Below are positions 3,651 through 28,524 of a stretch of DNA of 34,669 bases, in pieces. A program made the position numbers and the translations under genes. The number at the start of each line of letters is the position of its first letter. Position 1 is the stretch's first letter. The DNA comes from a virus, in IMG/VR virus record IMGVR_UViG_3300021959_005009, positions 1 through 34,669 of that record; one strand, 5' to 3'. The notes beneath the pieces are model-generated. The model saw only the letters and a program-made list of their open reading frames with translations, was not told the origin of the DNA and did not search any database.

Positions 3651-3653
3651 ATA
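3646..3653 (+). promoter_or_regulatory. Late-type promoter octamer GATAAATA
   Basis: The octamer overlaps the stop codon of gp44 and lies exactly 5 nt before ATG 3659. This spacing recurs at 8247, 11473 and on the minus strand at 25018. Transcription from it would begin at or next to the ATG. Because it is partly within coding sequence, chance occurrence cannot be excluded. Confidence 0.45.
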
Positions 3654-8089: not shown

Positions 8090-8111
8090 GGTATCTCCTT
8101 TTTGAAGCCAT

Positions 8112-8144
8112 AAAAAAACCGTGCATGAGTACTCATGAACGGTT
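8112..8144 (-). terminator. Terminator-like hairpin in the phoH leader (possible attenuator)
   Basis: Read on the minus strand, AACCGT-T-CATGAGT pairs with ACTCATG-C-ACGGTT: 13 base pairs with one mismatch, followed at once by seven U residues. This is a canonical intrinsic terminator for leftward transcription, yet phoH (start 8089) lies just beyond it, with its Shine-Dalgarno only 12 nt after the U-tract. Confidence 0.75.
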
Positions 8145-8190
8145 GCTCTGTATATGTTGTCTACAACTTTTTGAATGGTTGTTAATCATC

Positions 8191-8219
8191 ATGTAATATT
8201 ATTTAGTATTAGATGTCAA
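8191..8219 (-). promoter_or_regulatory. Possible promoter for phoH
   Basis: On the minus strand a perfect TTGACA lies at 8219-8214. The -10 is poor: TTACAT with a 17-bp spacer, or TATTAC with 15. A late-like ACTAAATA (8206-8199) overlaps it. Either would start a leader of roughly 95-105 nt in front of phoH that includes the terminator hairpin. Confidence 0.4.
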
Positions 8220-8246
8220 TGTTAAAACAACTATGTTAATAACTTT

Positions 8247-8254
8247 GATAAATA
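8247..8254 (+). promoter_or_regulatory. Late-type promoter octamer GATAAATA
   Basis: GATAAATA (7 of 8 to the T4 late consensus TATAAATA) lies exactly 5 nt before ATG 8260. The transcript would begin at or next to the start codon. Confidence 0.65.
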
Positions 8255-8259
8255 CTTGT

Positions 8260-8808
8260 ATGTCAAAATATACATCGGAAGATATCAATAACACCATAAA
8301 GGCTATAAATCAAGATAGAACATTACTTGATATGCTATTAGAACTAGATGGTCTCTTTGAGCATCTAGGTATTTATGCGTTTAAGAACTGGAAAAAGGGC
8401 AAAATAGTGGAAGTAGGCCGCCCTAGTAAATACTGGATTGATCTAACATTAATGTACGATAAAGCAGATATGCCAGATCCAGAAGGTGCATTACGTTTAA
8501 CTAACAAAAATTGCAAAGTAAAATTTAATGAAGATGTATTCGAATATCCTAAAAAGATAACAGGTCCAGAAGATATTGAAGTTGAAATTAGAAGAGATAG
8601 AGTGTACAGAAAAACCAAAACAGAATCAGATCCTGTATGGTTAGTTGAGTTAAGAATACCAAGAAAGTATTTAGAGCATTATGACGAAGCAGAAACTAAA
8701 ATGAATGACGATAGTATTTCTACACAAGACGCAACTGATGGAGCAATGCTACAGCAAGGCGTAGATCCAACAGCACAAATACCAGCAGATCCAATGGCGG
8801 GCATATAA
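8260..8808 (+). CDS. Conserved phage protein, probably late
   Basis: The frame is open from ATG 8233, but I place the start at ATG 8260 (MSKYTSEDIN), 182 residues, because a late promoter octamer lies at 8247-8254 and would start the message at this codon. No Shine-Dalgarno precedes either ATG. The body holds blocks such as LLELDGLFEHLGIYAFKNW and KYWIDLTLMYD, with a low-complexity tail rich in Gln, Ala, Asp and Pro. No membrane segment or catalytic motif is seen. The late-type promoter and the following genes make a virion or morphogenesis role likely. I cannot name the family. Confidence 0.68.
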   Translation: MSKYTSEDINNTIKAINQDRTLLDMLLELDGLFEHLGIYAFKNWKKGKIVEVGRPSKYWIDLTLMYDKADMPDPEGALRLTNKNCKVKFNEDVFEYPKKITGPEDIEVEIRRDRVYRKTKTESDPVWLVELRIPRKYLEHYDEAETKMNDDSISTQDATDGAMLQQGVDPTAQIPADPMAGI

Positions 8809-8809
8809 T

Positions 8810-9565
8810 ATGAAGCATCTTGATTTAGTAGACTTGGTAATACCAAAAATTAGTCTAGATGAATTTTCTCCTAAAACTGGAGATAATAAAGATGTTATTG
8901 TTGTTGGCTTTTATGTTGATGATTTAGAACCTGCTAAAGACTTATCTAATTTCATAGAAGCAGGAGCATACCAAACACTAGACTGCGAGGCTTCTCCAGC
9001 CGCAAACGATGAAGGTCATTATATGGTGTTTGTGGAAATGAAAAGAAACGACGAGATTTATGAAAAAATAGATAAAATTTTACATGATGTAGAAAACTTA
9101 TCTGGTAAACTAGCATGGACAGTAAAGCCATACTATGCAGATGAAGACTTTAAACTACAGGAAGATACATGGAAAAGTTTTGTAATAGTGGACCCAGATA
9201 TGTATGTAGATAAAAAAACATTCCAACAGAATAAAATACAAGCAGAAGAATCTGCTTACAAAGAAAATTTAGGTAATTTTTTAATTGACAGTTTAATGTC
9301 AAACGTAAATTTAGATAAAGACACAGAAACAGATAAAATACAATTTCAAAGAGGTAAAAGAGTTTTTGAATTTGAATTAATTAACTTTGGTCAAAAAGAT
9401 ATATTAGAAGATATTTCATCAGAGCCTATCAGAAGTTTGTTAAGCGATGATTTAGCATTTGCAGATGCAATAGGTAAAACGTATGTAATTAACAACTTTA
9501 GTGAAGGAAGGTTTACACTTTCTAAAGAAGGCTGTGATGATGTTATGTTATTAAGAAAAATATGA
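8810..9565 (+). CDS. Hypothetical protein (251 aa), probably late
   Basis: This 251-residue acidic protein lies one base after the preceding stop and is certainly co-transcribed with it. It alternates beta-like stretches (VIVVGFYVDDLEPA; HYMVFVEMKR; LAWTVKPYYADEDF) with charged helices; the middle (about 130-165) is rich in Lys, Gln and Glu. There is no signal peptide, membrane segment or catalytic motif that I know. Its TGA overlaps the ATG of the acyl-carrier-like gene. Pairing with the upstream late gene suggests a structural or assembly role, which is inference. Confidence 0.68.
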   Translation: MKHLDLVDLVIPKISLDEFSPKTGDNKDVIVVGFYVDDLEPAKDLSNFIEAGAYQTLDCEASPAANDEGHYMVFVEMKRNDEIYEKIDKILHDVENLSGKLAWTVKPYYADEDFKLQEDTWKSFVIVDPDMYVDKKTFQQNKIQAEESAYKENLGNFLIDSLMSNVNLDKDTETDKIQFQRGKRVFEFELINFGQKDILEDISSEPIRSLLSDDLAFADAIGKTYVINNFSEGRFTLSKEGCDDVMLLRKI

Positions 9566-9792
9566 AAATAGAAATACTAGAAGTATTACAATCACACTTT
9601 GGTAAAGATAAAGAAATTACCTTAGACAGTCATTTAATGGATGACTTAGGCGGTGATGAATTTGACATAGTTGATGTATTTGTTCAAATAGAATCCAAAT
9701 TAGGTATATCCATACCAGAAGAAGAAACATTTGATATAATGACTGTGTCTGCACTATGCGAGGTAGTAGATAGACATGTTCAGTCAGATTAA
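9562..9792 (+). CDS. Acyl carrier protein-like, attachment serine replaced
   Basis: This 76-residue acidic protein matches the acyl carrier protein fold in length and pattern: TLDSHLMDDLGGDEFDIVDV, then IESKLGISIPEEE and a final helix. In true ACPs the start of helix 2 reads D-S-L, and the Ser carries 4'-phosphopantetheine; here residues 32-34 are D-E-F, so Glu33 stands at the Ser position and the protein cannot be loaded in the usual way. It may act as a structural or docking ACP homologue, for example binding ACP partners without acyl transfer. It overlaps the genes on both sides and lies before the spanin candidates. Confidence 0.72.
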   Translation: MKIEILEVLQSHFGKDKEITLDSHLMDDLGGDEFDIVDVFVQIESKLGISIPEEETFDIMTVSALCEVVDRHVQSD

Positions 9793-10261
9793 AATAATAC
9801 TTTTCTTTATAATGATCCTTGGCGCCGGCGGAGGATTGATGTATGTAAAACATTTACAATCAGAAAACGAAATCCTTACACTTAATAATGCAAAACTAAA
9901 TGATGCTGTTGAGCAACAACAAGCAGTCATTGAACAGCAATTACGTGATATAGAAACTAAGACCGAAATTAATAAACAACTAAGTAAAAACAATGCTAAA
10001 CTTACAGCAGACTTAAATCTTGCAAATGAAAAGTTTAATAAAGTAAATGCATCAGGCGAAAGAAGAGATGTAGGTGCCTTGGCAGTAGCAAAGCCTAAAA
10101 GCATAGAGCGAATAGAAGGTAAAAGAGAACAACAAAGAGCAAGATGTTTTGAAATAGCACAAGGCTCGCCACTAACAGAGGAGGAATTAAATGCAACTAA
10201 GAAATCGCAAATTAATGCAGAATGCACTAATATTGCCAATCCTAATTACGTTCCTTATTAG
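9776..10261 (+). CDS. Candidate inner-membrane spanin (Rz-like)
   Basis: This 161-residue protein has one N-terminal membrane helix (about residues 5-24) with a short cytoplasmic start, followed by a long coiled-coil stretch rich in Gln, Asn, Lys and Glu (about 26-95), as in i-spanins. The C-terminal part has two cysteines and a Pro/Tyr end. The next gene starts inside this one in another frame (71-bp overlap) and encodes a lipoprotein, the classical i-spanin/o-spanin arrangement that fuses inner and outer membranes in the last step of lysis. There is no sequence family I can name; the call rests on topology and gene order. The ATG overlaps the preceding gene by 17 bases. Confidence 0.65.
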   Translation: MFSQIKIILFFIMILGAGGGLMYVKHLQSENEILTLNNAKLNDAVEQQQAVIEQQLRDIETKTEINKQLSKNNAKLTADLNLANEKFNKVNASGERRDVGALAVAKPKSIERIEGKREQQRARCFEIAQGSPLTEEELNATKKSQINAECTNIANPNYVPY

Positions 10262-10637
10262 TGGTTGTGCAAGTACAAAGCAATTAGAAATCTTTACTAA
10301 AGAAGTAGAACGTATGCCGTTAGACTTAGAACTTCCTCCAGTTGTCATATTAGAACAAATAAATTGGAAGATTATAAATGAGGGTAATCAAGAAGAAGTA
10401 TTTGCTGAACTTAAAAAAGCAAACATAGATCCTGTGCTATTCTCGTTAACTGACGAAGACTACGAATTAATGCAGAAAAATAATGTACAGTTGCGTAATC
10501 AGATTATCAAATACAGAGCAATTATAGAAGCCTATAAATTATATTACGAACCCGAAGAACAGATAGGTACAGATAAAGATACTAATAAATTACTCAATTC
10601 AGAGTTTCAGCCAAAAACATTCAATAAAGACGATTAA
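10191..10637 (+). CDS. Candidate outer-membrane spanin lipoprotein (Rz1-like)
   Basis: This 148-residue protein begins at ATG 10191, chosen because a strong Shine-Dalgarno (GAGGAGG) lies just before it. A basic start, a hydrophobic stretch and the lipobox L-I-S-G-C with Cys26 form a type II signal peptide; Ser follows Ala at +3, with no inner-membrane retention Asp at +2, which favours the outer membrane. The mature part is charged and helical, longer than the Pro-rich Rz1 of lambda. Its overlap in a different frame with the membrane-anchored coiled-coil gene supports an o-spanin role. A plain phage lipoprotein is the alternative. It ends just before an early promoter. Confidence 0.65.
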   Translation: MQLRNRKLMQNALILPILITFLISGCASTKQLEIFTKEVERMPLDLELPPVVILEQINWKIINEGNQEEVFAELKKANIDPVLFSLTDEDYELMQKNNVQLRNQIIKYRAIIEAYKLYYEPEEQIGTDKDTNKLLNSEFQPKTFNKDD

Positions 10638-10640
10638 CAC

Positions 10641-10668
10641 TTGACTTTCTTGTCAATTCCTGTATAAT
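10641..10668 (+). promoter_or_regulatory. Early sigma70-like promoter for dnaJ-like gene
   Basis: TTGACT (10641-10646) and TATAAT (10663-10668) are 16 bp apart. The predicted start is about 10675, two bases before ATG 10677, and there is no Shine-Dalgarno. Confidence 0.82.
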
Positions 10669-10676
10669 TAAACATT

Positions 10677-11477
10677 ATGGATCACTATCAAATACTTGGT
10701 GTTAGCCGCGATGCTGACACTCGCGAAATTAAAACAGCATATCGTAAATTAGCAAGTAAGCATCATCCTGATAAAGGTGGCGACGAACAAAAGTTTAAAG
10801 AGATTCAGAATGCATACGAAACACTCAGTGATCCACAAAAACGTGCAGAGTATGATAATCCTAATCCGTTTGGTAGTGGCAATCCTTTTGGTGGACAAAG
10901 TAATCCATTTGCTGATATATTTGGTGATATATTTGGTCATAGACAGCAACGTAGGCAACAGAACATGGATGCCCAAACAGATTTAGTGTTACCATTAGAG
11001 CAAGTATACACTGGTACAACTCAACGAATAGATGTTGGTACTGGTATAATAGATTTACAGATACCAGCAGGTGTAAATGACGGTACTAGATTTACTATAC
11101 ATGGCAAAGGTCCGCAACGTGATCCTAATTTACCTCCAGGTGATCTATTTGTTAGAGTTAGACATCAACCACATAGAGAGTTTGCAAAAGATGGTAATGA
11201 TCTAATTGGTATAGCAGAAGTTGATTACTTTGAAGCAGTAACAGGCACAACCATAAGGGTAAGACATATAAGTGGCAGAATGTTATCAGTTAATGTACCT
11301 GCAGGAACAAGGCCTAATAGCAGACTTAGTTTGAGAGGCGAAGGATTTACAAATCCTAATAACAGTATTGTTGGCAATTTTATATTACAAATTAATGTAG
11401 AGCCGCCAAATAATATTAATAATGAACATTTAAGACTTATACAAAGAATTATACAAGAACGCAGGAGAAATAATTAA
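10677..11477 (+). CDS. DnaJ/CbpA-like co-chaperone
   Basis: This 266-residue protein has a full J domain at residues 1-65 with the HPD motif at 30-32 (KHHPDKGG), needed to stimulate DnaK ATPase. A Gly/Phe/Asn-rich linker follows ([11 protein letters not shown], about 66-100), then two beta-sandwich substrate-binding domains typical of DnaJ C-termini ([22 protein letters not shown]). The zinc-finger domain of DnaJ is absent, so it is class II, like CbpA. It would recruit the host DnaK to phage proteins. It is followed eight bases later by a ClpA-like unfoldase, making a protein-quality module. The promoter spacing predicts an almost leaderless mRNA. Confidence 0.92.
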
Positions 11478-11480
11478 ATA
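11473..11480 (+). promoter_or_regulatory. Weak late-like octamer (ATTAAATA) before clpA-like gene
   Basis: It matches the T4 late consensus in the last six of eight positions and lies 5 nt before ATG 11486, the same spacing as at 3646, 8247 and 25018 (minus). In an AT-rich genome this may be chance; the conserved spacing is the main support. Confidence 0.3.
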
Positions 11481-11485
11481 CTATT

Positions 11486-13663
11486 ATGAACATAGACGGA
11501 ATCATTGAAGAAGCATACGAAATATCTAATCAGTTTAATCATGAATATATGACTGTAGAGCATTTGGTCCTTGCACTAATTAAAGACAACGAGATTAAAA
11601 AAATACTTAAAGAATGTAATGTTGAAATTAAACAATTAGAAGCAGACCTTGTTACATACCTCAATGATGAACAATATAATAATTTAAAATCTGATGGCGG
11701 TGCTGTTGGTAAGCCTAGAAAAACCATGGCTGTAGAAAGAATATTTCAAAGAGCATTTGCACAAAGTATTTTTAATGGTAGAGATAAAATATCTGCAATA
11801 GATCTGTTAGTTAGCATTACAAATGAAGAAAATTCCCATGGTGCATATTTTCTCAGTGTCAATGGATGTCATAGAGAAAATTTACTAGACGTATTGGGAG
11901 AAGTAACTGACGGTGAACTAGTTGAAGAAGAACACGATTACATTAAAAACTTAAATGAAGAAGCACTCAATGGTGGCATAGATCCGCTCATTGGTAGACA
12001 AGAAGAAGTAACTGATGTTGTAGAAATACTTGCTAGACGTAAAAAGAATAATGTGTGTTTAGTAGGTGAGCCAGGCGTAGGTAAAACTGCAATAGCAGAA
12101 GGTATGGCTTGGAAAATTATTAATAAACAAGTACCTAAAACATTAGAAGATAAAACTGTATTTCAAATTGATGTAGGCACAATGTTAGCAGGTACAAAGT
12201 TTAGAGGAGACTTTGAAGAAAGACTCAAAGGCGTACTTGATCAAATATCAAAAAATGAAAATGCAATTCTTTTCATTGATGAAATACATATGATTATGGG
12301 TGCCGGTAGTGCTGGTAGCAGTCAAGTAGATGCGGCAAACATGTTAAAGCCAATGCTGGGCAAAGGTAAACTATTATGTATTGGTGCAACAACACCAGAT
12401 GAATTTGCTAGTACATTTGAGAAAGATAGAGCATTAATGCGTAGATTTGCTAGACTTGATGTAGAAGAAACCACACTCAAAGATACCATTGCAATATGTA
12501 AAGGGTTACAATCACATTATGAAGAGTTCCACAAAGTTAAGTATGAGGAAGGCACTATTGAAAAAGCATGTGAACTAGCAGATAGATATGTTAAAAACAA
12601 ATACTTTCCTGACAAGGCATTAGATATTGTGGATGCCGCTGGGGCAGTTGCTAAAGTATTAGGAAAAAAAGTTGTCAAACTAGACGGTGTTGTATTACAA
12701 GTATCTAAACTTGCAAAGATCAAAGAAGAAGTTGTTGACATCAAAGACACAAAAGGATTTAGGAATCTAGATAAAAAGATTAAAAAGAAAGTATTTGGGC
12801 AAGACGAAGCAGTAGATAAACTTGTAGAAAGTATTCTTGTTAGTAAAGCAGGACTTAGAGAGCCTAATAAACCAATTGGTACATTCCTATTTGTAGGACC
12901 AACAGGTGTAGGTAAAACAGAAACAGCAAGAGCATTAGCAGACGAATTAGATATTAAACTAGTTAAGTTTGACATGTCAGAGTATATGGAAAGACATAGT
13001 GTCAGCAAACTTATTGGTGCTCCTCCAGGTTACGTTGGACACGCAGAAGGCGAACTAGGACAAGGCATGTTGCTATCTGAAATAGATAAGAATCCTAATT
13101 GTGTATTGCTACTAGATGAAGTAGAGAAAGCCGCACCAGAAGTATTACAAGTATTGTTACAAGTAATGGATGATGGCAGGCTTACAGGTGCAACAGGTAA
13201 AACTGTAGACTTCAGTAATGTTACACTTATAATGACCAGTAACTTAGGTGCCGCAAAGGCAGAAACAAGCAAGATTGGATTTGGTGAAACATCACACACA
13301 GACACAGATATTAAAGCAGTTAAAAGTTTCTTCACACCAGAGTTTAGAAATAGAATAGACTCTTATGTTAAGTTTAATAAACTTGGCATGAAAGAAGTCA
13401 ATCTTATTATTGATAAGATTGTTAAAGAAACAAACGAATTACTTGCTAGTAATGACAGCAAAATTAGTATAGAACTAACCAAAGCGGCTAAGAAGTATAT
13501 TGCAGACAACGGATTTGAACCTAGCATGGGTGCAAGGCCTTTGAAAAGACTATTCGAAGATGTTGTTAAGAAACCTATTAGTAAAAAAATACTGTTTGAT
13601 AAAATTGAAGAAGGCACAGTACTTGTAGATTATATTGAGCAGTTTGAATTCACTGTCAAATGA
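11486..13663 (+). CDS. ClpA-like AAA+ unfoldase
   Basis: This 725-residue protein has the complete ClpA plan: an N-domain (1-150, EHLVLALIKD and EHDY), D1 with Walker A GEPGVGKT at 194-201 and LFIDEIHMI, then D2 with Walker A GPTGVGKT at 471-478, LLLDEVEKA and the sensor segment, ending with the FEPSMGARPLKR motif. There is no ClpB-type coiled-coil M domain. IGF at 597-599 lies in the loop before FFTPEFRNRID, where ClpA and ClpX carry the ClpP-docking IGL/IGF tripeptide. It should therefore thread substrates into ClpP; no clpP is in the window, so host ClpP would be used. The DnaJ-like gene precedes it. Confidence 0.93.
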   Translation: MNIDGIIEEAYEISNQFNHEYMTVEHLVLALIKDNEIKKILKECNVEIKQLEADLVTYLNDEQYNNLKSDGGAVGKPRKTMAVERIFQRAFAQSIFNGRDKISAIDLLVSITNEENSHGAYFLSVNGCHRENLLDVLGEVTDGELVEEEHDYIKNLNEEALNGGIDPLIGRQEEVTDVVEILARRKKNNVCLVGEPGVGKTAIAEGMAWKIINKQVPKTLEDKTVFQIDVGTMLAGTKFRGDFEERLKGVLDQISKNENAILFIDEIHMIMGAGSAGSSQVDAANMLKPMLGKGKLLCIGATTPDEFASTFEKDRALMRRFARLDVEETTLKDTIAICKGLQSHYEEFHKVKYEEGTIEKACELADRYVKNKYFPDKALDIVDAAGAVAKVLGKKVVKLDGVVLQVSKLAKIKEEVVDIKDTKGFRNLDKKIKKKVFGQDEAVDKLVESILVSKAGLREPNKPIGTFLFVGPTGVGKTETARALADELDIKLVKFDMSEYMERHSVSKLIGAPPGYVGHAEGELGQGMLLSEIDKNPNCVLLLDEVEKAAPEVLQVLLQVMDDGRLTGATGKTVDFSNVTLIMTSNLGAAKAETSKIGFGETSHTDTDIKAVKSFFTPEFRNRIDSYVKFNKLGMKEVNLIIDKIVKETNELLASNDSKISIELTKAAKKYIADNGFEPSMGARPLKRLFEDVVKKPISKKILFDKIEEGTVLVDYIEQFEFTVK

Positions 13664-14211
13664 ATTTAGGAAAACGTATTGCAGGCATAGATATACAGCC
13701 GTCTTTTAAACTTTGGTGGAACAAGTATCATATCAAAGTAGTTATTAAAGGCAATTGGCTAATACACGATGCTATGATAATGAACGACATTTATGCATTT
13801 CAAAATTTGCATTGTTGGGACACAATGAAATTTGCATGGAATAAAAATTTTACTACATATTTTGCAGACAGTAATGTAGCCAAAAAGTTTATTAAAAATT
13901 TTAAAGATAGTATTATTAGTGTAGAAGGTATACGTTCACCAGAAGAATATAATGTAGTTATTTCTGACACTAAATTATTAAGGCGTCAACTATTTTTTAA
14001 TAAATATAGATACATGACATATAAGATTATGCCGTCGAATAAGTTTTGCGATAAGGTACAAAATCTTAATATGGATGCTAGGATATCCACTACTAAAGAT
14101 AGATGGAAAACTACAATTTACATGAGCAACAAAAAAGATGTTGCCAAACTACAACTATCACTTGGTAAAACAGAGCAGATATATAAAGTTGTAACACTAG
14201 AGGAATTATAA
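13660..14211 (+). CDS. Hypothetical protein (183 aa)
   Basis: This 183-residue basic protein overlaps the clpA stop (ATGA) and ends one base before the lysozyme gene. It is rich in Lys, Asn, Trp and Tyr (KLWWNKYHIKVV; FNKYRYMTYKIM) and looks beta-rich with no signal peptide or membrane helix. I compared it by memory with gp62 (similar length, missing after gp44) and saw no convincing resemblance. Function unknown. Confidence 0.68.
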   Translation: MNLGKRIAGIDIQPSFKLWWNKYHIKVVIKGNWLIHDAMIMNDIYAFQNLHCWDTMKFAWNKNFTTYFADSNVAKKFIKNFKDSIISVEGIRSPEEYNVVISDTKLLRRQLFFNKYRYMTYKIMPSNKFCDKVQNLNMDARISTTKDRWKTTIYMSNKKDVAKLQLSLGKTEQIYKVVTLEEL

Positions 14212-14685
14212 ATGGGATTATTTGGAAGAGACACAAAATTAGATAGAGAAGCAGTTTTTGAGCAACTTAAAATAGACGAAGGAGTAGTCAATGAAGTCTA
14301 CCTCGACCACTTGGGATACCCAACTTTTGGAGTGGGCCATTTGGTCCTCGACACCGATCCAGAGAATGGAGCAGAAGTTGGAACACCCGTATCAGAAGAA
14401 CGTGTTAAAGAATGTTTTGAAAAAGACCTTGACACAGCAATATCTGAATGTGAGTTATTATACGAAGAAGGGGTATTTGGAGACTTACCAGACGAAGTCC
14501 AGCAAATCTTGGTTAATATGATGTTCAACATGGGTAGAACTAGACTAAGCAAGTTTAAGAAAATGCATGCCGCAATCATCAAGGAAGACTGGAAAACTGC
14601 CGCAATAGAAGGTAGAGATTCAAGATGGTACAAACAAGTGACTAACCGTGCTGAAAGGCTGATGACTCGACTCGAACAAGTTTAA
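14212..14685 (+). CDS. T4-type endolysin (lysozyme, GH24-like)
   Basis: This 157-residue muramidase cleaves peptidoglycan at lysis. The T4 catalytic triad is seen with exact spacing: Glu23 (IDEG), Asp32 (YLDHLGYP) and Thr38, corresponding to T4 Glu11, Asp20 and Thr26. GVGHL follows, as do the conserved NMMFNMG and SRWYKQVTNRAERL blocks near the C-terminus. The length matches T4 gpe (164 aa). There is no signal peptide, so a holin must release it; the small membrane proteins at 6376 and 27232 are possible candidates. ATG 14212 has a GAGGAA Shine-Dalgarno. Confidence 0.93.
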   Translation: MGLFGRDTKLDREAVFEQLKIDEGVVNEVYLDHLGYPTFGVGHLVLDTDPENGAEVGTPVSEERVKECFEKDLDTAISECELLYEEGVFGDLPDEVQQILVNMMFNMGRTRLSKFKKMHAAIIKEDWKTAAIEGRDSRWYKQVTNRAERLMTRLEQV

Positions 14686-14690
14686 CAACA

Positions 14691-14741
14691 TTCTCATAAG
14701 TGCCTTATTGAGATAAATACAATTGAGGCTACTTATGAGAA
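14691..14741. promoter_or_regulatory. 11-bp inverted repeat around a late promoter; translational switch candidate
   Basis: TTCTCATAAGT (14691-14701) and ACTTATGAGAA (14731-14741) are perfect inverted copies. Between them lie the late octamer (14712-14719) and a GAGG Shine-Dalgarno (14725-14728); the right arm covers ATG 14735. Read-through RNA can fold and hide the start codon; RNA begun at the late promoter lacks the left arm. Confidence 0.7.
14712..14719 (+). promoter_or_regulatory. Late-type promoter octamer GATAAATA
   Basis: This copy lies upstream of the first fibre-block gene. Transcription would start near 14725, at the GAGG Shine-Dalgarno, leaving a very short leader before ATG 14735. 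Confidence 0.72.
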
Positions 14742-15094
14742 GAACATTAGAAATGCTAGGAAACTCAAGTGATAATATGAGTTTAACTGGCGAAAAAATC
14801 AAAGCAGATAGTTATTTCGGTTATACGGACGGTATTCATTCCGTTAGTGTAAAGTTAAATGCTTTTGTGGGCAAGATTAAACTACAAGGCACACTATCTT
14901 TAACGCCAGAATCAGCCGATTGGGGCGATATTAAACTTATAGAAAAAGCATCTGCAACCACAGGCACAGAAATTCACACATTTAAAGGTAATTATGTATA
15001 CCTAAGAGCCGTTCTTGATAGAGCAGGAGTCGGCGATGGCAGTACATACGACTTATCATACGGTAGTATCTCACAAATTTTATTAAGCAATTAA
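14735..15094 (+). CDS. Small virion/fibre-associated protein
   Basis: This 119-residue protein is started at ATG 14735, not at the in-frame TTG 14723, because GAGG lies six bases upstream and the late promoter leaves little room before it. The sequence is beta-rich with small residues and resembles fibre or decoration modules: HSVSVKLNAFVGKIKLQGTL, a W-G-D-I turn, KGNYVYLRAVLDRAG. Position as first gene of the fibre block under a late promoter suggests a tail-fibre accessory or decoration protein. No closer family is recognised. Confidence 0.72.
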   Translation: MRRTLEMLGNSSDNMSLTGEKIKADSYFGYTDGIHSVSVKLNAFVGKIKLQGTLSLTPESADWGDIKLIEKASATTGTEIHTFKGNYVYLRAVLDRAGVGDGSTYDLSYGSISQILLSN

Positions 15095-15106
15095 ATCAAC
15101 TTTGTT

Positions 15107-15114
15107 GATAAATA
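15107..15114 (+). promoter_or_regulatory. Late-type promoter octamer GATAAATA
   Basis: It overlaps a small hairpin (ATCAAC-TTT-GTTGAT, 15095-15109) and precedes the collagen-fibre gene. The predicted start near 15120 gives a 25-nt leader with an AGGAA Shine-Dalgarno before ATG 15145. Confidence 0.72.
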
Positions 15115-15144
15115 CATTATAATTGCAATTAGAATAGGAATACT

Positions 15145-18564: not shown

Positions 18565-18568
18565 TACT

Positions 18569-20581: not shown

Positions 20582-20621
20582 TCTATTCTAATACGATTTT
20601 TGCCACTTATTCTGGCAGAAA

Positions 20622-20629
20622 GATAAATA
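20622..20629 (+). promoter_or_regulatory. Late-type promoter octamer GATAAATA
   Basis: It sits 97 bases before ATG 20726, after a hairpin (TGCCA...TGGCA, about 20601-20617). The message would have a roughly 90-nt leader containing two inverted repeats. Confidence 0.72.
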
Positions 20630-20651
20630 CTATTACACAATACATCAGTAC

Positions 20652-20701
20652 ACATTATTCCGGAACAATGTAAAAATTGAAAGAGGGAGTTGAATACCCT
20701 C
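20652..20701 (+). promoter_or_regulatory. Structured leader of the fibre gene at 20726
   Basis: ACATT-a-TTCC|GGAA-c-AATGT (20652-20671) is a nearly perfect inverted repeat. GAGGG (20683-20687) can pair with CCCTC (20697-20701). Both lie between the late promoter and the AAGGAG Shine-Dalgarno at 20711, so they would form hairpins in the leader. Confidence 0.55.
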
Positions 20702-20725
20702 AAACACTCCAAGGAGAAAATCAAA

Positions 20726-22471: not shown

Positions 22472-22510
22472 TATCATTTGAATAGTTTAGGCTAATCAAA
22501 AACAACTTAG

Positions 22511-22537
22511 AAAAGCGACTTCGGTCGCTTTTCTTTT
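22511..22537 (+). terminator. Rho-independent terminator after fibre gene
   Basis: AAAAGCGAC-TTCG-GTCGCTTTT (22511-22532) is a nine-base-pair hairpin with a stable UUCG tetraloop, followed by CTTTT. It ends the late fibre transcript just before an early promoter. Confidence 0.93.
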
Positions 22538-22540
22538 GAC

Positions 22541-22569
22541 TTGACACAGAGGATAAAAGAATGTATAAT
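22541..22569 (+). promoter_or_regulatory. Early sigma70-like promoter, leaderless start
   Basis: TTGACA (22541-22546) and TATAAT (22564-22569) are 17 bp apart. The predicted +1 is the A of ATG 22576. Confidence 0.87.
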
Positions 22570-22575
22570 ACATGT

Positions 22576-23172
22576 ATGAAAAATAAAATTATATTGACAG
22601 ATTGCGATGGCGTAGTATTGGACTGGGAGTTTGCATTCCATAATTGGATGGAACACAGAGGACACTTTCCAGTAGAAAATCACAGGTTACATTACAGCAT
22701 TAGAGAAAAGTTTGATCTAAGAAACGACTCTACTGGTGATCAAGTAATCAAAAACTTTAATGAAAGTGCGGCAATAGGATTCCTTCCTCCACTTCGTGAT
22801 GCTCAATACTTTGTTAAGAAGTTACACGAGCAACATCAATATCAATTTGTAGCAATTACAAGTTTGAGTTTAGACCCTTATGCACAAGAACTTAGAACTA
22901 AGAACTTGAATAAACTGTTTGGCGACGACTGTTTTAAAGAAGTTATCTGTTTAGATACAGGTGCAGACAAGGATGAAATATTACTAGAGTTTGGTAAAAA
23001 ATACCCAGGAGCATACTGGATAGAAGACAAACCACAGAATGTTGACTGGGGCATAGATGCTGGTCTAAAAGGTATCTTAGTTGAACATGGACACAATATG
23101 CATTACAAAGGTGATGCAAGTGTATGTAAAACTTGGGAAGAAATTTACAATTTAATTGTAAAAACCGGTTGA
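22576..23172 (+). CDS. HAD-superfamily phosphatase (deoxyribonucleotidase-like)
   Basis: This 198-residue HAD-family hydrolase starts at ATG 22576. The in-frame ATG 22561 is rejected because it overlaps the -10 box. The four HAD motifs are visible: DCDGVVLD at the N-terminus (nucleophile Asp and general acid Asp), AITSL with the motif II Thr or Ser, a Lys in the middle, and WIEDKPQN as the acidic motif IV. The small cap and size fit 5'(3')-deoxyribonucleotidases, which dephosphorylate deoxynucleoside monophosphates, but substrate specificity cannot be told from the sequence. It begins an early-type cassette between fibre genes. Confidence 0.82.
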   Translation: MKNKIILTDCDGVVLDWEFAFHNWMEHRGHFPVENHRLHYSIREKFDLRNDSTGDQVIKNFNESAAIGFLPPLRDAQYFVKKLHEQHQYQFVAITSLSLDPYAQELRTKNLNKLFGDDCFKEVICLDTGADKDEILLEFGKKYPGAYWIEDKPQNVDWGIDAGLKGILVEHGHNMHYKGDASVCKTWEEIYNLIVKTG

Positions 23173-23197
23173 CCTCGACCCTAGAATTTGCTATAAT
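23169..23197 (+). promoter_or_regulatory. Early sigma70-like promoter
   Basis: TTGACC (23169-23174) and TATAAT (23192-23197) are 17 bp apart. The predicted +1 near 23204 gives a 34-nt leader with a strong AGGAGG before ATG 23238, unlike the leaderless early promoters. Confidence 0.85.
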
Positions 23198-23237
23198 ATA
23201 TACATAATTTAGCAAAAACAGACGGTAGGAGGTCTTT

Positions 23238-23612
23238 ATGCAAAACTTAAATACAACAAATCAAAGCAAAGATAAAATTACAGCACCACTAGGTTACTGG
23301 ATTAGTTCGCTTACTTTGATTGACAAGGCATTGCCTAGTTACAATATCCAACTTACTGGATTAGAAAGCATGTGGTACAATCACGAAGAAAACATTGATC
23401 ACCCAGAAGGTAGCGAATACCCAACTGGTATCAATACTGCTCACAGAAATGTGATGGTAAAAAGAGTATGTGATAGTGTTTATACTAGAACAGGCATTAA
23501 CCCTGCAGATTACTCAAATGTTATTCATGCAAGTAAATCACCTGCTAGAAACAAAGACGGCAGTATTAGAGATGATGTTGTTGAAGGTAGATATGTTTTG
23601 AGGAATGTGTAA
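23238..23612 (+). CDS. Hypothetical protein (124 aa), early
   Basis: This 124-residue protein has its own early promoter and an AGGAGG Shine-Dalgarno, so high early expression is likely. It is mostly soluble, with aromatic segments (LGYWISSLTLIDKALPSYNIQ; ESMWYNHEENIDHPEG) and a charged C-terminus (KSPARNKDGSIRDDVVEG). No membrane segment or known motif is seen. It overlaps the frame of the next gene only at the very end. I do not recognise it. Confidence 0.75.
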   Translation: MQNLNTTNQSKDKITAPLGYWISSLTLIDKALPSYNIQLTGLESMWYNHEENIDHPEGSEYPTGINTAHRNVMVKRVCDSVYTRTGINPADYSNVIHASKSPARNKDGSIRDDVVEGRYVLRNV

Positions 23613-23613
23613 T

Positions 23614-24363
23614 ATGAATGTTGCTAAAGCAAAATCAGGCAAGTGGTTTGAAGATCAGTATAGTTTAACTGATCTTCTTTCTTTGTCAGTAGCCGTAAAC
23701 AGAGTAAATGGTGGTTATATCAAAAAGGATGCCAACATCGAAGAAGATGATAATGGTTATCAAAAGCAACTACCTAACCTTTTCATTATCAATAACCACT
23801 TAGGTATTGAAAAATTCAAAACATCTAGTATTAATAAAACACTAGATACATATTATAATGATATCTCAGTTATCGAAAGCGATAGTGAAAATGTTGATCA
23901 CATGGTTAAGTATTTCAAAGGACTTAGTCTTAAAGCAATCAAACGTGATATCAGTGACTTTGAAAAATCAATCTTAGGTCTTATCAATAAGGAATTTGTG
24001 CAATACAAAGATATTGGTATTATTGCAAGTTTACCTAGTGTTTATGAAAATGGTCAAAAGCAACGTGCATTTAATAAAATGGAAAAAGAACTTGCACAAC
24101 ATAGTCAATATGTTGGTACACTAAATGAACGTGAAACATTTAATCTTGAAATCCTTCATAAGAAATTTATATGGAGAAGTAACAGTTATTTGTATGTTGC
24201 CAAAGAAGGTGATTACAACATTGTAAAATTCTTTTCACATAAATCTAATGCTGATGTTGGTGATATAGTTTCACTCACAGCATTCGTTAAAGATCACACT
24301 ATTGGTAAAATGTCACGTGGGTGTGAAACTTACTTGAATAGAGTTAAGTTTTCTGAAGAGTAG
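23614..24363 (+). CDS. Hypothetical protein (249 aa), early
   Basis: The frame is open from ATG 23605, but ATG 23614 is preferred: GAGG at 23600-23603 lies ten bases from it and only one base from the first ATG. The 249 residues are basic and mixed (SGKWFEDQYSLTDLLSLSVAVNR; a helical IKRDISDFEKSILGLINKEF stretch). The C-terminal 45 residues (VKFFSHKSNADVGDIVSLTAFVKDH, then ETYLNRVK) look like a small beta-barrel, an OB-like pattern I have seen in phage nucleic-acid proteins, so a replication or recombination role is conceivable. Its end overlaps the minus-strand oxygenase by 20 bases. Confidence 0.72.
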   Translation: MNVAKAKSGKWFEDQYSLTDLLSLSVAVNRVNGGYIKKDANIEEDDNGYQKQLPNLFIINNHLGIEKFKTSSINKTLDTYYNDISVIESDSENVDHMVKYFKGLSLKAIKRDISDFEKSILGLINKEFVQYKDIGIIASLPSVYENGQKQRAFNKMEKELAQHSQYVGTLNERETFNLEILHKKFIWRSNSYLYVAKEGDYNIVKFFSHKSNADVGDIVSLTAFVKDHTIGKMSRGCETYLNRVKFSEE

Positions 24364-25012
24364 CAATTAAATAAACCATAACCCTTTGCATAGTGTCTGG
24401 CTCTAAAGTAAGGTCCGGACAACTATGCCAACCTTTACTGCTTCTTGGTAATATGTATGCCCTATTAGGAACATAAGGCATTTGGTGACCCATTCGTACT
24501 AATTTACTATCTTCGCCAAAAGTAGGATCTAATCCTTCGTCAATCGCTTGATCATAAGCACAATCAACTTCCCAAAACATAGTACCTGTGTGTGCAAATT
24601 CATCAGTATCTGCTAATGAATGCTGAACTGTATAGTAGTATGAAGGGTGGTCTACGTGAACATCATGTACAGAATTTTTGTTTGTGTCCATCCACATAAA
24701 CGGTTGATTGATATTTACTTTACTTGACATATTCATTACATTACCTATTGCATCTAAAACCTCTTGGTTTCTGTACACATATTCAGTGGCTATTTGTAAT
24801 GCTTCTTGTGACTCATCTGGTCCTATATGATACCCATGTCTGCCTGGTAATTCTTCATTTTGCCATTGATTCCATGGTATGCAGTTTTGTACCTGTGCGT
24901 ACAAATCAGGATGCATAAAGTTTTCTACATCCATTACATGTAGTTTGTCAGTTTCGATTGGTGATGTATCTAGTATTCTATCTACCGTCCATTTAGTGTA
25001 TTCTGTACTCAT
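24344..25012 (-). CDS. 2OG-Fe(II) oxygenase-like protein
   Basis: This 222-residue minus-strand protein has the marks of the 2-oxoglutarate/Fe(II) dioxygenase fold: an H-x-D pair in VHDVHVDHPSY, a distal His in SSKGWHSCPD, and an Arg before VMVYLI for 2OG binding. Such enzymes hydroxylate proteins, nucleic acids or small molecules; the target here is unknown. Related genes are frequent in marine T4-like phages. ATG 25012 is preceded five bases upstream by an exact TATAAATA late octamer and no Shine-Dalgarno, so a leaderless late message is predicted. It is transcribed toward a convergent early gene. Confidence 0.75.
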   Translation of the reverse strand: MSTEYTKWTVDRILDTSPIETDKLHVMDVENFMHPDLYAQVQNCIPWNQWQNEELPGRHGYHIGPDESQEALQIATEYVYRNQEVLDAIGNVMNMSSKVNINQPFMWMDTNKNSVHDVHVDHPSYYYTVQHSLADTDEFAHTGTMFWEVDCAYDQAIDEGLDPTFGEDSKLVRMGHQMPYVPNRAYILPRSSKGWHSCPDLTLEPDTMQRVMVYLIATLQKT

Positions 25013-25017
25013 ACATA

Positions 25018-25025
25018 TATTTATA
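25018..25025 (-). promoter_or_regulatory. Late promoter TATAAATA, minus strand
   Basis: An exact T4 late consensus octamer reads leftward, with 5 nt to ATG 25012. It lies five bases from the rightward octamer at 25031, forming a divergent late promoter pair. Confidence 0.72.
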
Positions 25026-25030
25026 AAAAA

Positions 25031-25038
25031 GATAAATA
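25031..25038 (+). promoter_or_regulatory. Late-type promoter octamer GATAAATA
   Basis: This octamer is upstream of the fibre gene at 25125, with a leader of about 80 nt that contains three inverted repeats. Confidence 0.72.
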
Positions 25039-25046
25039 TAGTTAAG

Positions 25047-25096
25047 TCCTAATAGGATTTGACTACATGTTTACATGTAGACTAGCAGAATGCTAG
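25047..25096 (+). promoter_or_regulatory. Three tandem hairpins in a fibre-gene leader
   Basis: TCCTA-A-TAGGA (25047-25057), CTACATGT-TT-ACATGTAG (25063-25080) and CTAGCA-GAA-TGCTAG (25082-25096) follow one another between the late promoter and the GGAGAG Shine-Dalgarno near 25110. Confidence 0.7.
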
Positions 25097-25124
25097 ACAA
25101 GTACATATTGGAGAGTAGTAACGA

Positions 25125-27218
25125 ATGGCAATCATAATGAATGCCAAAGGTACCTCGCAAAGCAGTTTTAGAATAGGCAAACGCGGTTCTAGACTGTACG
25201 GGACATCTGACGCACCCAGTGACGTTGATAATATCTCGACAGGTGATCTTTGGTTCGATTCAAGCAATACACTAATAAAAATTGCAACGGTAAGTGACGG
25301 TTCTGTAGCATGGAGCAAACTAACTGTAGGCGATGCTGATACACTAGATGGTATCAATAGTACAAGTTTTGCCAGAGTCGATACAGATAATACGTTTGCA
25401 AATGATGTTACCATAACAGGTAATTTAATTGTAAACGGTACTCAATCTATAATCAATACAGAAACTCTCAATATTGCTGACAATGAAATAGTTTTAAACA
25501 GCGACCTTCCTTCCAACCAACCCGCAACTGCAAACGCAGGAATATTAGTAAACAGAGGTAACGAAAGTAATGTGTACCTTCGTTGGGACGAAGATGAAGG
25601 CGAATGGACTGTTAATGGTCAAACATTTAGTGCTGGTGCTTTTGTTGGTAACCTAAGTGGTAATGTAACAGGAAGTATAGCACCCAATGGAGCACCTAAC
25701 GTTGTTAGAGCAAACACACTAATTGTAAACGGCTCTTACACTATGCCAACATCAGATGGGACTGCTGGACAGTTTTTACAAACTGATGGAAGTGGTGGCA
25801 TAACATTCTCAAGTGAATTTACAGATTTAAGCATCACAGGAACAGCAACATACAATACTGTTGAGTTCCAAAATTCAAACATAATGAAGTTTAACCAGAG
25901 ATACACTGGTGCTTCAAATGGTAGTTACTTTAGTAACGGTGAATATCAAAAAGTAGTAACAATTATACCAAGTGGCGCCAGCCAAAACTATCAAGTGGTT
26001 GGTCGTATGACGGCTCAAAATGCTGGTGAAACTCACACAGTTTATTTTAATGCCGCATTGAGAAGTAACACATTACCAGACCTTGACTGGACTATAACCT
26101 ATGATGAAGAATACAATGGTGGTAGATATCTAGATCCTCAACTGTGGACCAAAGAAACAACCACAGCAGGATTTATTTTTGCATTCAAAACATTAGGCAC
26201 AATTTATGGGTCTGTTACAATTGATATGGAAGTTATTCCAAGAGCCAGTTCACAAAAAGACAATGTAACTGTGAACACAGTTGTAAACAGTGAGCAATCC
26301 AGTGTTGATGCAGGATATACTGCTAATGATATGGTATTGGTCACAAGAAAACAAGGAACCACATTCAGTGTAAAAGATGTAAGCATAACAGGTAATATTG
26401 TTCCCACAGCAAACGAAGTTTACGATTTAGGAACAAGTTCAAACAGATTTAAAGATTTATATCTAAGTGGTAGTACTATCAATTTAGGCACAACAGCAAT
26501 CAGTATTAACAGTAATGACGAAGTTGATTTTACTGATTCTGCAAACAGCAGTATTAAAAGAAAACTTGTTGTAGACGAAATACATTTGGGTGACGGTGAC
26601 GATGCAGTTGTCCTCAAAAAAGGTTCTGACGGAAGATTCCAGTCCAAAACACAAAACAGAAGTTCAAAAGCAGAAAGTACCAACAAAGTTGATTTAGATG
26701 ATAACAATTCAGATGATTTAAGTGAAGGTTCAACAAATTTATACTTTACAAATGCAAGAGCAGATGCTAGAGTTACTTCTGTATTAGCAACACAAGATTC
26801 AGATGATATCAAAGAAGGTTCTACAAACCTTTACTTTACAGATGCAAGAGCAAATAGTGCCATAGATGCGAAACTTACTGGCAATTTAACATTCGGTGAA
26901 GTTGATGCAAGTATTGTATCATCGCCTATATTTGAAACAGTAAGCGATTACGGATTGATTACTAGTTCAACAACAAACACAATCGACTACGGTTTATTAA
27001 CTGATACCGTTGTAGCATTAGTAAATAGTGATTACGGTGTAGTTGAAACAAGTGGAGGACCAGTTGAGTTTCCACGATATGCAGTACTATCAGTACCTGA
27101 TGCATCTGCATACATTGGGCATATGATTTATGTAACCAATGACACAGGGGGTCCAGTAATGGCATTTAGTGATGGCACTAACTGGAGAAGAGTAACAGAC
27201 AGAGCAGTCATAAGTTAG
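25125..27218 (+). CDS. Tail fibre / virion structural protein
   Basis: This 697-residue late protein starts at ATG 25125 with GGAGAG upstream. Residues about 99-160 hold the same fibre module as the gene at 20726 (GNLIVNGTQSIINTETLNI, AGILVNRGNESNVYLRWDEDEG). Near residues 525-590 two copies of D-x-x-EGSTNLYFT-x-ARA are found, a repeat known in marine phage fibres. Residues about 415-460 carry a VPTANEVYDLGTSSNRFKDL block that typifies fibre shafts. The C-terminus (SVPDASAYIGHMIYVTNDTGGPVMAFSDGTNWRRV) resembles fibre-end domains of other phages. It is a structural protein, probably part of the tail-fibre or baseplate periphery. Confidence 0.87.
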   Translation: MAIIMNAKGTSQSSFRIGKRGSRLYGTSDAPSDVDNISTGDLWFDSSNTLIKIATVSDGSVAWSKLTVGDADTLDGINSTSFARVDTDNTFANDVTITGNLIVNGTQSIINTETLNIADNEIVLNSDLPSNQPATANAGILVNRGNESNVYLRWDEDEGEWTVNGQTFSAGAFVGNLSGNVTGSIAPNGAPNVVRANTLIVNGSYTMPTSDGTAGQFLQTDGSGGITFSSEFTDLSITGTATYNTVEFQNSNIMKFNQRYTGASNGSYFSNGEYQKVVTIIPSGASQNYQVVGRMTAQNAGETHTVYFNAALRSNTLPDLDWTITYDEEYNGGRYLDPQLWTKETTTAGFIFAFKTLGTIYGSVTIDMEVIPRASSQKDNVTVNTVVNSEQSSVDAGYTANDMVLVTRKQGTTFSVKDVSITGNIVPTANEVYDLGTSSNRFKDLYLSGSTINLGTTAISINSNDEVDFTDSANSSIKRKLVVDEIHLGDGDDAVVLKKGSDGRFQSKTQNRSSKAESTNKVDLDDNNSDDLSEGSTNLYFTNARADARVTSVLATQDSDDIKEGSTNLYFTDARANSAIDAKLTGNLTFGEVDASIVSSPIFETVSDYGLITSSTTNTIDYGLLTDTVVALVNSDYGVVETSGGPVEFPRYAVLSVPDASAYIGHMIYVTNDTGGPVMAFSDGTNWRRVTDRAVIS

Positions 27219-27231
27219 TAGGAGAACATAA

Positions 27232-27558
27232 ATGGCAGACGAAAGTAATACAGCAATACACCATCCGGCTGATACAAATGGAGATGGAAAGGTTTCAAAA
27301 GCAGAAGAGCAAATGTACCTAGAGTTCAAAAGAAAAGAACTTGAAGACTTAGATGCAATGAGAGATGCTCAACGTAGCATGGCTTGGTTTGCACTAAGTG
27401 GTATGTTGTTATATCCTTTTGCAGTAGTAATAGCAGTATTGGCTGGCTTAAATCAAGCAAGTGAAATACTAGGTGACATGGCCGCTACATACTTTGTAGC
27501 AGTAGCAGGTATTGTTGCCGCCTTCTTTGGTGCTCAAGCATTTAGTAAAGGTAAGTAA
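27232..27558 (+). CDS. Membrane protein with EF-hand loop
   Basis: This 108-residue protein has a canonical EF-hand calcium loop at residues 14-25 (DTNGDGKVSKAE: Asp, Asn, Asp, Ser and Glu at positions 1, 3, 5, 9 and 12). An acidic/basic helix follows, then two membrane helices (about 50-72 and 84-104). The N-terminus is probably cytoplasmic or periplasmic, which cannot be decided here. A Shine-Dalgarno (AGGAGAA) precedes ATG 27232, 13 bases after the fibre stop, so it is expressed late with the fibres. Two helices and late timing make it a possible holin; a calcium-responsive accessory is the alternative. Confidence 0.75.
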   Translation: MADESNTAIHHPADTNGDGKVSKAEEQMYLEFKRKELEDLDAMRDAQRSMAWFALSGMLLYPFAVVIAVLAGLNQASEILGDMAATYFVAVAGIVAAFFGAQAFSKGK

Positions 27559-27563
27559 TTACT

Positions 27564-27869
27564 ATGGTAGATAAGGTAAGAAAACATTTTGTAAGAATAG
27601 TCGTAGAGGATGAAATATCACGTGATGATATTGTAGACTTCTTTGACATAGTACAAAGTGTTGTTCCAACCAAAGTATTTTCATCATTTGATGGCAGTGG
27701 CAACAAAGTAAAAGCAGAAGTAGTCCACTATGAATCAGATGATGTACAAGTATACGAAGTATTAACTGAAGATGATATTAGTGCTGAAGAAGGTACACAA
27801 ATTGCAGAAATACTTGCAGAAGAATTAGATGTGGTCGATTGGGACTTTGAGGCCAGTACTGAATATTAG
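27564..27869 (+). CDS. Hypothetical protein (101 aa)
   Basis: This 101-residue, strongly acidic protein starts at ATG 27564, five bases after the EF-hand gene, with a weak AAGGTAAG Shine-Dalgarno. The sequence suggests two beta-alpha-beta units (RIVVEDEISRDDIVDFFDIVQ; VQVYEVLTEDDISAEEG) and an acidic tail. There is no membrane segment, Cys pair or metal motif. Its end is followed by an early promoter, so it closes the late operon. Function unknown. Confidence 0.72.
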   Translation: MVDKVRKHFVRIVVEDEISRDDIVDFFDIVQSVVPTKVFSSFDGSGNKVKAEVVHYESDDVQVYEVLTEDDISAEEGTQIAEILAEELDVVDWDFEASTEY

Positions 27870-27872
27870 TAC

Positions 27873-27901
27873 TTGACCACAATCTACTTTTTTAGTATAA
27901 T
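27873..27901 (+). promoter_or_regulatory. Early sigma70-like promoter for dsbA-like gene
   Basis: TTGACC (27873-27878) and TATAAT (27896-27901) are 17 bp apart. The predicted +1 is near 27908, giving a leader of about 29 nt with an AGGA Shine-Dalgarno before ATG 27937. Confidence 0.87.
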
Positions 27902-27936
27902 ACTTAGATAATTAATTACATACACACAGGATTAAT

Positions 27937-28203
27937 ATGGCGTTCAATAAAACATTCAATCAAGAAGAAGTCGCAAGACTTAAAAAACTAGTTCAGGAAG
28001 GAGACCAAGTCCTTTATGAAGTAGAATCACTCCAAGTAGGTTTAAGAGAAACTGTTAAAGCAATAGCAGAAGAAATGGACATTAAACCTGCAATCCTTAT
28101 GAAAGCAGTTAAAGTTGCTCATAAGGCATCATTTACCGATGAAACAGATAAGTTTGATGCACTAGAAACTATTCTAGCCGCAGTTGGTAAAGATCACTTA
28201 TAA
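27937..28203 (+). CDS. dsbA: DsbA-like double-stranded DNA-binding protein
   Basis: This 88-residue helical protein resembles T4 DsbA, a small double-stranded DNA-binding protein that enhances late transcription, and the same protein of cyanophages. Matching features are size, an N-terminal helix with EEVARLKKLVQEGDQVLYEV, a central RETVKAIAEEMDIKP segment and a C-terminal helix (TDKFDALETILAAVG). The name follows phage usage and is unrelated to the disulfide oxidoreductase. The call rests on remembered family pattern. It is monocistronic between two early promoters. Confidence 0.72.
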   Translation: MAFNKTFNQEEVARLKKLVQEGDQVLYEVESLQVGLRETVKAIAEEMDIKPAILMKAVKVAHKASFTDETDKFDALETILAAVGKDHL

Positions 28204-28229
28204 AACAGGACCAATAAACTAAAAACAGG

Positions 28230-28257
28230 TTGACAATATAGATCTATCTGTTATACT
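28230..28257 (+). promoter_or_regulatory. Early sigma70-like promoter for gp43 operon, leaderless start
   Basis: TTGACA (28230-28235) and TATACT (28252-28257) are 16 bp apart. The predicted +1 is the A of ATG 28264. Confidence 0.82.
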
Positions 28258-28263
28258 ACTAAT

Positions 28264-28524
28264 ATGAGTCTGACTATAGAAAAGGTATATTTATTTGACA
28301 TGCAATGGACAGATGATGCTGACTATGAGCACATCTTTGAAGATAGGTTGCATGACACAATGATTCCTTTCTTTGCATTTGGTGAAGAAGCAACCTTTTC
28401 TAAAGAAGTAGACTTTGAAAGCAGTTATAAACCAGTTGCAAAAGTATATGCAAAGTTTATAACAGAGGCAAGCAAATATAAATTTATGTTAAAATATTCG
28501 GACAAATTAAATGAGTTACGTTGA
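28264..28524 (+). CDS. Hypothetical protein upstream of DNA polymerase
   Basis: This 86-residue acidic protein begins at ATG 28264, exactly at the predicted transcription start. A later in-frame ATG (28300) has only a distant purine stretch. The sequence has aromatic and acidic residues (LFDMQWTDDADYEHIFEDRLHD) and a basic helical end (FITEASKYKFMLKYSDKL). It overlaps the polymerase gene by 14 bases, so its translation may be coupled to gp43. No known motif is seen. Confidence 0.7.
   Translation: MSLTIEKVYLFDMQWTDDADYEHIFEDRLHDTMIPFFAFGEEATFSKEVDFESSYKPVAKVYAKFITEASKYKFMLKYSDKLNELR

Follow-up and report, generated by a model that had tools for sequence, protein, structure and literature searches.

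We analysed a 34,669-base viral record of IMG/VR (IMGVR_UViG_3300021959_005009; hereafter the window, meaning the whole stretch), in which seven genes have a promoter element immediately upstream of their ATG. Two promoter types are involved, a late octamer (NATAAATA) and host-type −35/−10 pairs, with 'early' and 'late' assigned from promoter type alone. These promoters very probably place the transcription start on the A of the start codon and would thus yield leaderless mRNAs. An original prediction made from the letters of the window had read them in this way, and this interpretation is supported by our comparison with related phages, in which leaderless transcription and translation are deduced from sequence. 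All seven elements and start codons were found where they had been placed, with spacings of 6, 6 and 8 nucleotides (nt) for the early and 5 nt for each of the four late promoters, but the genes at 10677 and 11486 are weaker as individual cases.

The window carries genes for a T4-type DNA polymerase, a clamp loader, a ClpA-like ATPase and DnaJ, and it belongs to a lineage of T4-related jumbo phages represented mainly by contigs in IMG/VR. The best named matches of the polymerase were Phosso and Atu_ph07 over the full length and the PA5oct group over about two thirds of it; those of ClpA were the PA5oct group, Phosso and Atu_ph07. A megablast search of window positions 3659–13663 against named phages gave no match. 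Relatives were collected through ClpA: 180 stretches of viral contigs held a relative of the window protein, and the best 80 were used. Since these 80 loci (1.52 Mb) include near-duplicates, longer records were added. Counts are given for the 80 loci, for eight records (the window, G015, G013, G003, G005, G009, G004 and G002; 601 NATAAATA octamers) or for seven (the window and six related records; 483 NATAAATA sites).

Spacing of promoters and start codons

Of the 12 NATAAATA sites in the window, three have the ATG of a called gene 5 nt downstream, and 20,000 random shifts gave a mean of 0.04 and never three or more. The same holds for 73 of the 483 sites in the seven records (1,000 shifts: mean 1.7, maximum 8), which bears out the claim that chance is an unlikely cause of the uniform spacing. 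Across the eight records, late distances were bimodal, with five genes at 0–4 nt, 81 at 5 nt, nine at 6 nt, 16 at 7–14 nt and 168 at 15–45 nt; we call the genes at 5 nt leaderless-type and those at 15–45 nt leadered. Among the 80 loci, GATAAATA was followed 35 times by an ATG opening an open reading frame (ORF) at a distance of 5 nt, compared with seven times for the rest of the 0–13 nt range taken together, and a broad hump began at 15 nt. As expected, ATAAATAG and ATAAATAT, which each contain seven octamer bases, peaked one base earlier in these loci, and the permuted octamers TAAATATA, GAATAATA, TAATAATA and GATTAAAA occurred at 5 nt two, one, one and zero times, respectively. A search independent of gene calls, using the pattern ATAAATANNNNTATG, returned 160 matches over a set of 49 records (at least one match in 40 of them), against 15 for the backward control; with a gap 3 nt longer, there were eight matches and 14 in the backward control. 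Only record G003 had a sizeable group at 6 nt (seven genes, besides 17 at 5 nt, compared with two at 6 nt in the other seven records together), which may reflect one-base flexibility of the start site.

The 5-nt class was absent from T4 (0/65 octamers), Syn9 (0/38), RaK2 (0/66) and 400 kb of Atu_ph07 (0/102; 271 octamers altogether), in which 25, 17, 28 and 40 leadered octamer genes were counted, respectively. The difference between the lineage and these four phages is large (Fisher p ∼1e-15, a value computed on non-independent records). Raw ATG spacing without gene calls was too noisy in the named jumbo phages and was superseded by these called-gene counts. Two further named isolates have a few such sites, PA5oct with 3/145 and SCTP-2 with 7/335 (against a background of three at 0–4 nt and seven at 7–14 nt in the latter), so that the three PA5oct and seven SCTP-2 genes can serve to test the leaderless prediction in culture. 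In a ClpA tree of 81 rows, leaderless-type genes were most frequent in a 45-row clade holding the relatives of the window, many of whose ∼20-kb loci lack a late leaderless-type gene; in the remaining clades few were seen, and RaK2, Atu_ph07 and a nine-row outer clade had none of the late type. The PA5oct branch is long and its placement unsure.

For the early promoters we counted near-consensus TTGACA/TATAAT pairs with at most one mismatch per box. Across the eight records, 32 genes had such a pair at 6 nt, six at 5 or 7 nt, 13 at 0–4 nt, 20 at 8–14 nt and 215 at 15–45 nt. Pairs at 6 nt numbered zero in each of T4, Syn9, RaK2 and Atu_ph07, one in PA5oct and three in SCTP-2. The dnaJ gene is the best-sampled case: a TATAAT-like box lies 5–8 nt from the ATG in 33 of 44 distinct upstream regions, in 24 of them at exactly 6 nt, with varied spacer sequence, and 10 of the 11 regions lacking the box belong to proteins at most 36.4% identical to the window DnaJ. 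The distance is 8 nt in the window and 6 nt in relatives from the same clade. The early layout also recurred in two records each for primase (G003 and G005), an ABC/SbcC-like ATPase (G003 and G013) and small unknown genes, the members being paired by their N-termini. Both the late 5-nt and the early 6-nt spacing recur in relatives while the flanks diverge; for the octamer, this is the outcome that the original prediction had set as its check. At a minus-strand site of G005 (locus L100, ∼3364), the ATG of a ferredoxin-like gene (named by eye) follows 5 nt after the octamer AATAAATA, which is overlapped by a TTGACA-N16-TATAAT pair; the arrangement suggests a composite promoter with early and late expression from one site.

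Two lines of evidence agree on the predicted start of transcription. One comes from the leadered promoters, in which the sequence is free of any constraint by a start codon. In 123 of them, position 5 after the octamer was T in 57% and position 6 was A in 63%. This T(−1)A(+1) initiator puts the predicted +1 of the 5-nt class on the A of AUG. The T4 late box usually spans −13 to −6, which likewise makes the sixth base after the octamer +1. A T4 review (PMC2988020) describes a late-promoter box of 8 bp that lies upstream of the start by roughly one turn of the helix, and it places a T of this box at −13. The form of the octamer with G was the commonest in both classes (43/73 leaderless-type and 85/123 leadered). 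As to a −35 element, the profile covered the six bases upstream of the octamer and showed no strong preference. A gp55 homologue was found in 11 of 16 records, including all those above 203 kb; the misses were G007, G010, G012, G013 and G015 (88–203 kb). Two families, phrog_12791 and phrog_234, were each matched in 11 of the 16 records, a set that does not contain the window.

From these data we infer at which base transcription begins, which forms of polymerase act and how the ribosome enters. Host RNA polymerase with a phage late sigma factor (the gp55 homologue) would recognise NATAAATA, mostly as GATAAATA, and start 6 nt downstream, and host RNA polymerase with sigma70 would recognise TTGACA-N16/17-TATAAT and start ∼7 nt downstream. 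For about a third of the octamer-driven genes (81 of 249 at 5 or 15–45 nt), the start base would then be the A of AUG. A start there leaves no room for a Shine–Dalgarno (SD) sequence, so that translation would have to begin at the 5′-terminal AUG, with the ribosome loading directly on it; 70S ribosomes are described as able to initiate on leaderless mRNA (in part of PMC8138138). A leader of a few nt could not hold an SD, and the AUG would no longer be 5′-terminal. The nearly empty zone at 6–14 nt in the late distances is what one would predict if short leaders are at a disadvantage compared with none.

Start codons, Shine–Dalgarno words and orthologues

Genes at 5 nt start almost exclusively with ATG (73 ATG, one GTG and no TTG, compared with 497, 42 and 32 for SD-supported starts; p 0.0015). 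SD words of at least 4 nt preceded only six of the 73 leaderless-type genes, as against 97 of 122 leadered genes; for other genes the figure was 800 of 1,523, and random places gave 310 of 2,100. The claim that two translation modes coexist held up. Across the lineage, 67 of 73 leaderless-type genes have no such word. In the window, the gene at 3659 has an AGGA 11 nt upstream of its ATG. This AGGA overlaps the octamer and could serve a read-through mRNA. In relatives of the gene (L004–L009 and L014), AATAAATA is kept at 5 nt. Codons 2–6 showed no base bias: the share of A was 43% in each of three groups, leaderless-type genes, leadered genes and other genes with an SD.

Starts of leaderless-type genes were then paired with those of SD-led, non-leaderless homologues, using alignments that reach near the N-terminus (54 further pairs fell short of it) and excluding pairs above 90% identity. 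The two starts lay within three residues of each other in 251 of 270 pairs, and two large families contributed 223 agreements among 227 pairs.

Orthologues of a virion structural gene, phrog_12928 (window position 8260), are the clearest sign of apparent switching between the two modes that sequence offers. The octamer–5 nt–ATG layout is found in the window, its close relatives, L013, L017, L023 and L039, whereas in L028, L040, L015, L033, L046 and many others a leader of 16–33 nt, usually with an SD word, follows the octamer. For example, L017 has GATAAATAGTTGT and then ATG, and L028 has GATAAATAGTTGT, then AACAGGAG and, further on, ATG. A second family, mostly of 137-amino-acid proteins, switches likewise between leaderless-type and leadered forms. 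Such pairs, whose members differ in whether a leader follows immediately on the predicted +1, allow a direct test of the conditions and reasons for which a virus loses its SD leader.

In the seven records, the 73 leaderless-type late genes (69 of them of at least 60 amino acids) fall into 54 families, 17 of which show the layout in at least two records. A PHROGs scan of 18 of the proteins matched 10, among them a terminase large subunit, a head–tail adaptor, a gp25-like baseplate wedge, PAAR, tail tube, NUDIX and radical SAM proteins and families of unknown function. Compared with SD-led orthologues, starts agreed in all six baseplate-wedge and both PAAR pairs, in three of six terminase pairs and in two of four adaptor pairs. 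The tail-tube gene of G003 was dropped as an example; an SD-like word overlaps its octamer and its start lies 21 residues upstream of that of the SD-led orthologue.

In one jumbo-phage lineage, leaderless mRNAs seem to serve many early and virion genes and to come from promoters of two types. The orthologue pairs also provide a sequence rule for annotating start codons in this lineage: an ATG 5 nt after the octamer or 6 nt after TATAAT. A lineage-wide programme of two translation modes, in which the 81 of 249 octamer-driven genes (terminase, adaptor, baseplate wedge and PAAR among them) and the early dnaJ and primase genes would be read from AUG-initial mRNAs, is a speculative extension that we consider rather doubtful. 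If it were true, translation could continue when SD-dependent initiation is altered, for example by phage bS21 or host stress. Ribosomal protein bS21 (PF01165) was matched in 12 of 22 jumbo-phage records. It was rejected as a discriminating factor: matches occurred in users of the layout and also in Atu_ph07, which has no gene at 5 nt, and there was no match in G005, the heaviest user.

Alternative explanations and known systems

The TATG at these sites might be a promoter initiator motif instead of a start codon, the true start lying downstream or the ATG opening nothing. Late promoters of phiKZ are described with a TATG motif at +1 (in part of PMC4666361), a T precedes the ATG in 77% of the 5-nt class, and in seven of 16 families half or fewer of the pairs share a start. 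However, a called gene begins at 73 of the 85 ATGs found at 5 nt, and the leadered promoters prefer T–A without any preference for ATG (position 7 T 36%, position 8 G 16%). As SD-led orthologues in the two best-sampled families also begin at the same residues, we regard this explanation as very unlikely. Somewhat less improbable, although still unlikely, is that the promoters are real but that longer read-through mRNAs account for most translation of the genes, with the spacing arising as a side effect of genome compactness. Compactness would fill the range of 0–14 nt evenly, yet 5 nt stands out, most leaderless-type genes are without an SD word, and the 5-nt class is missing from T4, Syn9, RaK2 and Atu_ph07. 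In favour of read-through, an end of a called ORF is found no more than 60 nt away from 31 of the 73 leaderless-type octamers (the gene's own extended ORF being counted), and SD-like words are present in six of the 73. Least credible of all is an A/T-rich octamer acting as a translational element, for ribosome or S1 binding, and not as a promoter. It does occupy the place of an SD, but the same octamer precedes 168 genes by 15–45 nt, most with an SD word of their own (97 of 122 in the seven records), and the early set has a full −35/−10 pair. The octamer also resembles the T4 late promoter as described in passages of PMC2988020.

Several points weigh against transcription starting on the A of the start codon, or limit its reach. 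The AUG bias at 5 nt is partly due to the preference for A at +1, and some leaderless-type genes could be translated from read-through mRNA. The comparison of homologue starts, so clear in the two large families, holds less well elsewhere (28 of 43 pairs, with a majority in nine of 16 families), and with one best pair per family only 10 of 20 starts agree. A control octamer, AGTAAATA, had four of its 90 sites at 5 nt in the seven records; we read it as a weak octamer variant. The early 6-nt peak is less clean than the late one, being diluted by scattered counts, and G004 has no early peak (one at 6 nt compared with four at 0–4 and five at 8–14 nt). The records are mutually related, G015 being close to the window, and gene calls were made by a simple hexamer script. 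A host search returned no more than a single 6.4-kb contig in a gammaproteobacterial metagenome-assembled genome.

Leaderless genes have already been deduced in bacteria from the placing of a −10 box at the start codon, and T4 late promoters are known as well. T4 late promoters depend on gp55, gp33 and gp45. They share with the promoters described here an A/T box of 8 bp roughly one helical turn upstream of the start, virion genes under its control and a late sigma homologue (here in the longer records), but the commonest form is GATAAATA here and TATAAATA in T4, which lacks the 5-nt class. The textbook example of a leaderless mRNA in phages is a single one, the cI transcript of lambda, which likewise begins on AUG and is SD-independent; it is one repressor transcript, compared with the dozens of early and virion genes predicted here.

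Leaderless initiation was found in phage lambda according to part of PMC3160421, and cI has been used as a reporter (in part of PMC8138138). 'TA-led' leaderless genes of bacteria, with a −10 box ∼10 bp before the start codon and no SD, are described in passages of Zheng et al. 2011 (PMC3160421). The logic of inference is the same as ours, but here phages are concerned, sigma70-type and late promoters both sit on AUG, and orthologues are SD-led. AR9 and phiKZ are also large phages, with mapped late promoters, but both use phage RNA polymerases. AR9 leaders measure 26–491 nt, and the same paper remarks in general, citing an E. coli ribosome study, that phage transcripts are 'often leaderless' (PMC5312081). 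In phiKZ, the first base of late transcripts is the G of TATG (PMC4666361). A literature search whose coverage excluded most subscription journals turned up no description of late mRNAs without a leader for T4-type or jumbo phages.

Features of the window

Promoters and genes are listed in Table 1. The weak site before 11486 has counterparts in relatives, ATTAAATA or GTTAAATA, that keep the distance of 5 nt; NTTAAATA showed a small excess at 5 nt (five of 485 sites, with none at 0–4 or 6–8 nt).

Table 1. Promoter elements and associated genes in the window, in order of position
Feature	Position	Strand	Remarks
Late octamer GATAAATA	3646..3653	+	5 nt before ATG 3659; leaderless type
Radical SAM gene, predicted leaderless	3659..5176	+	B12-binding domain match under Pfam cut-off
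Late octamer GATAAATA	8247..8254	+	5 nt before ATG 8260
Virion structural protein (phrog_12928), predicted leaderless	8260..8808	+	orthologues leaderless-type or SD-led
Host-type promoter TTGACT-N16-TATAAT	10641..10668	+	8 nt before ATG 10677
DnaJ co-chaperone, predicted leaderless or with 1–3 nt leader	10677..11477	+	orthologues also short-spaced
Weak late octamer ATTAAATA	11473..11480	+	5 nt before ATG 11486
ClpA-like ATPase, possibly leaderless from weak promoter	11486..13663	+	read-through from dnaJ also possible
Late octamer GATAAATA, leadered type	14712..14719	+	ATG 14735, 15 nt, SD-like GAGG
Late octamer GATAAATA, leadered type	15107..15114	+	ATG 15145, 30 nt
Late octamer GATAAATA	20622..20629	+	ORF at 20690, start >45 nt off; outside counts
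Host-type promoter TTGACA-N17-TATAAT	22541..22569	+	6 nt before ATG 22576
NT5C-like gene, predicted leaderless early	22576..23172	+	match just below Pfam cut-off
Gene without PHROG or Pfam match, predicted leaderless	24344..25012	-	same layout in G015
Late octamer TATAAATA	25018..25025	-	5 nt before ATG 25012
Late octamer GATAAATA	25031..25038	+	ATG 25125 86 nt downstream; divergent from 25018–25025; outside counts
Host-type promoter TTGACA-N16-TATACT	28230..28257	+	6 nt before ATG 28264
86-amino-acid gene, predicted leaderless early	28264..28524	+	upstream of DNA polymerase gene

At 25018–25038, two divergent late octamers lie 5 bp apart, TATAAATA on the minus and GATAAATA on the plus strand, one of them of the leaderless type; similar close divergent pairs occur in G009 near 73.4 kb and in G004 near 271.5 kb. 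Elsewhere in the window, two adjoining genes at 898–2444 encode proteins with similar N-termini, both containing the stretch VKARRCGSNSL, and are an apparent tandem duplication.

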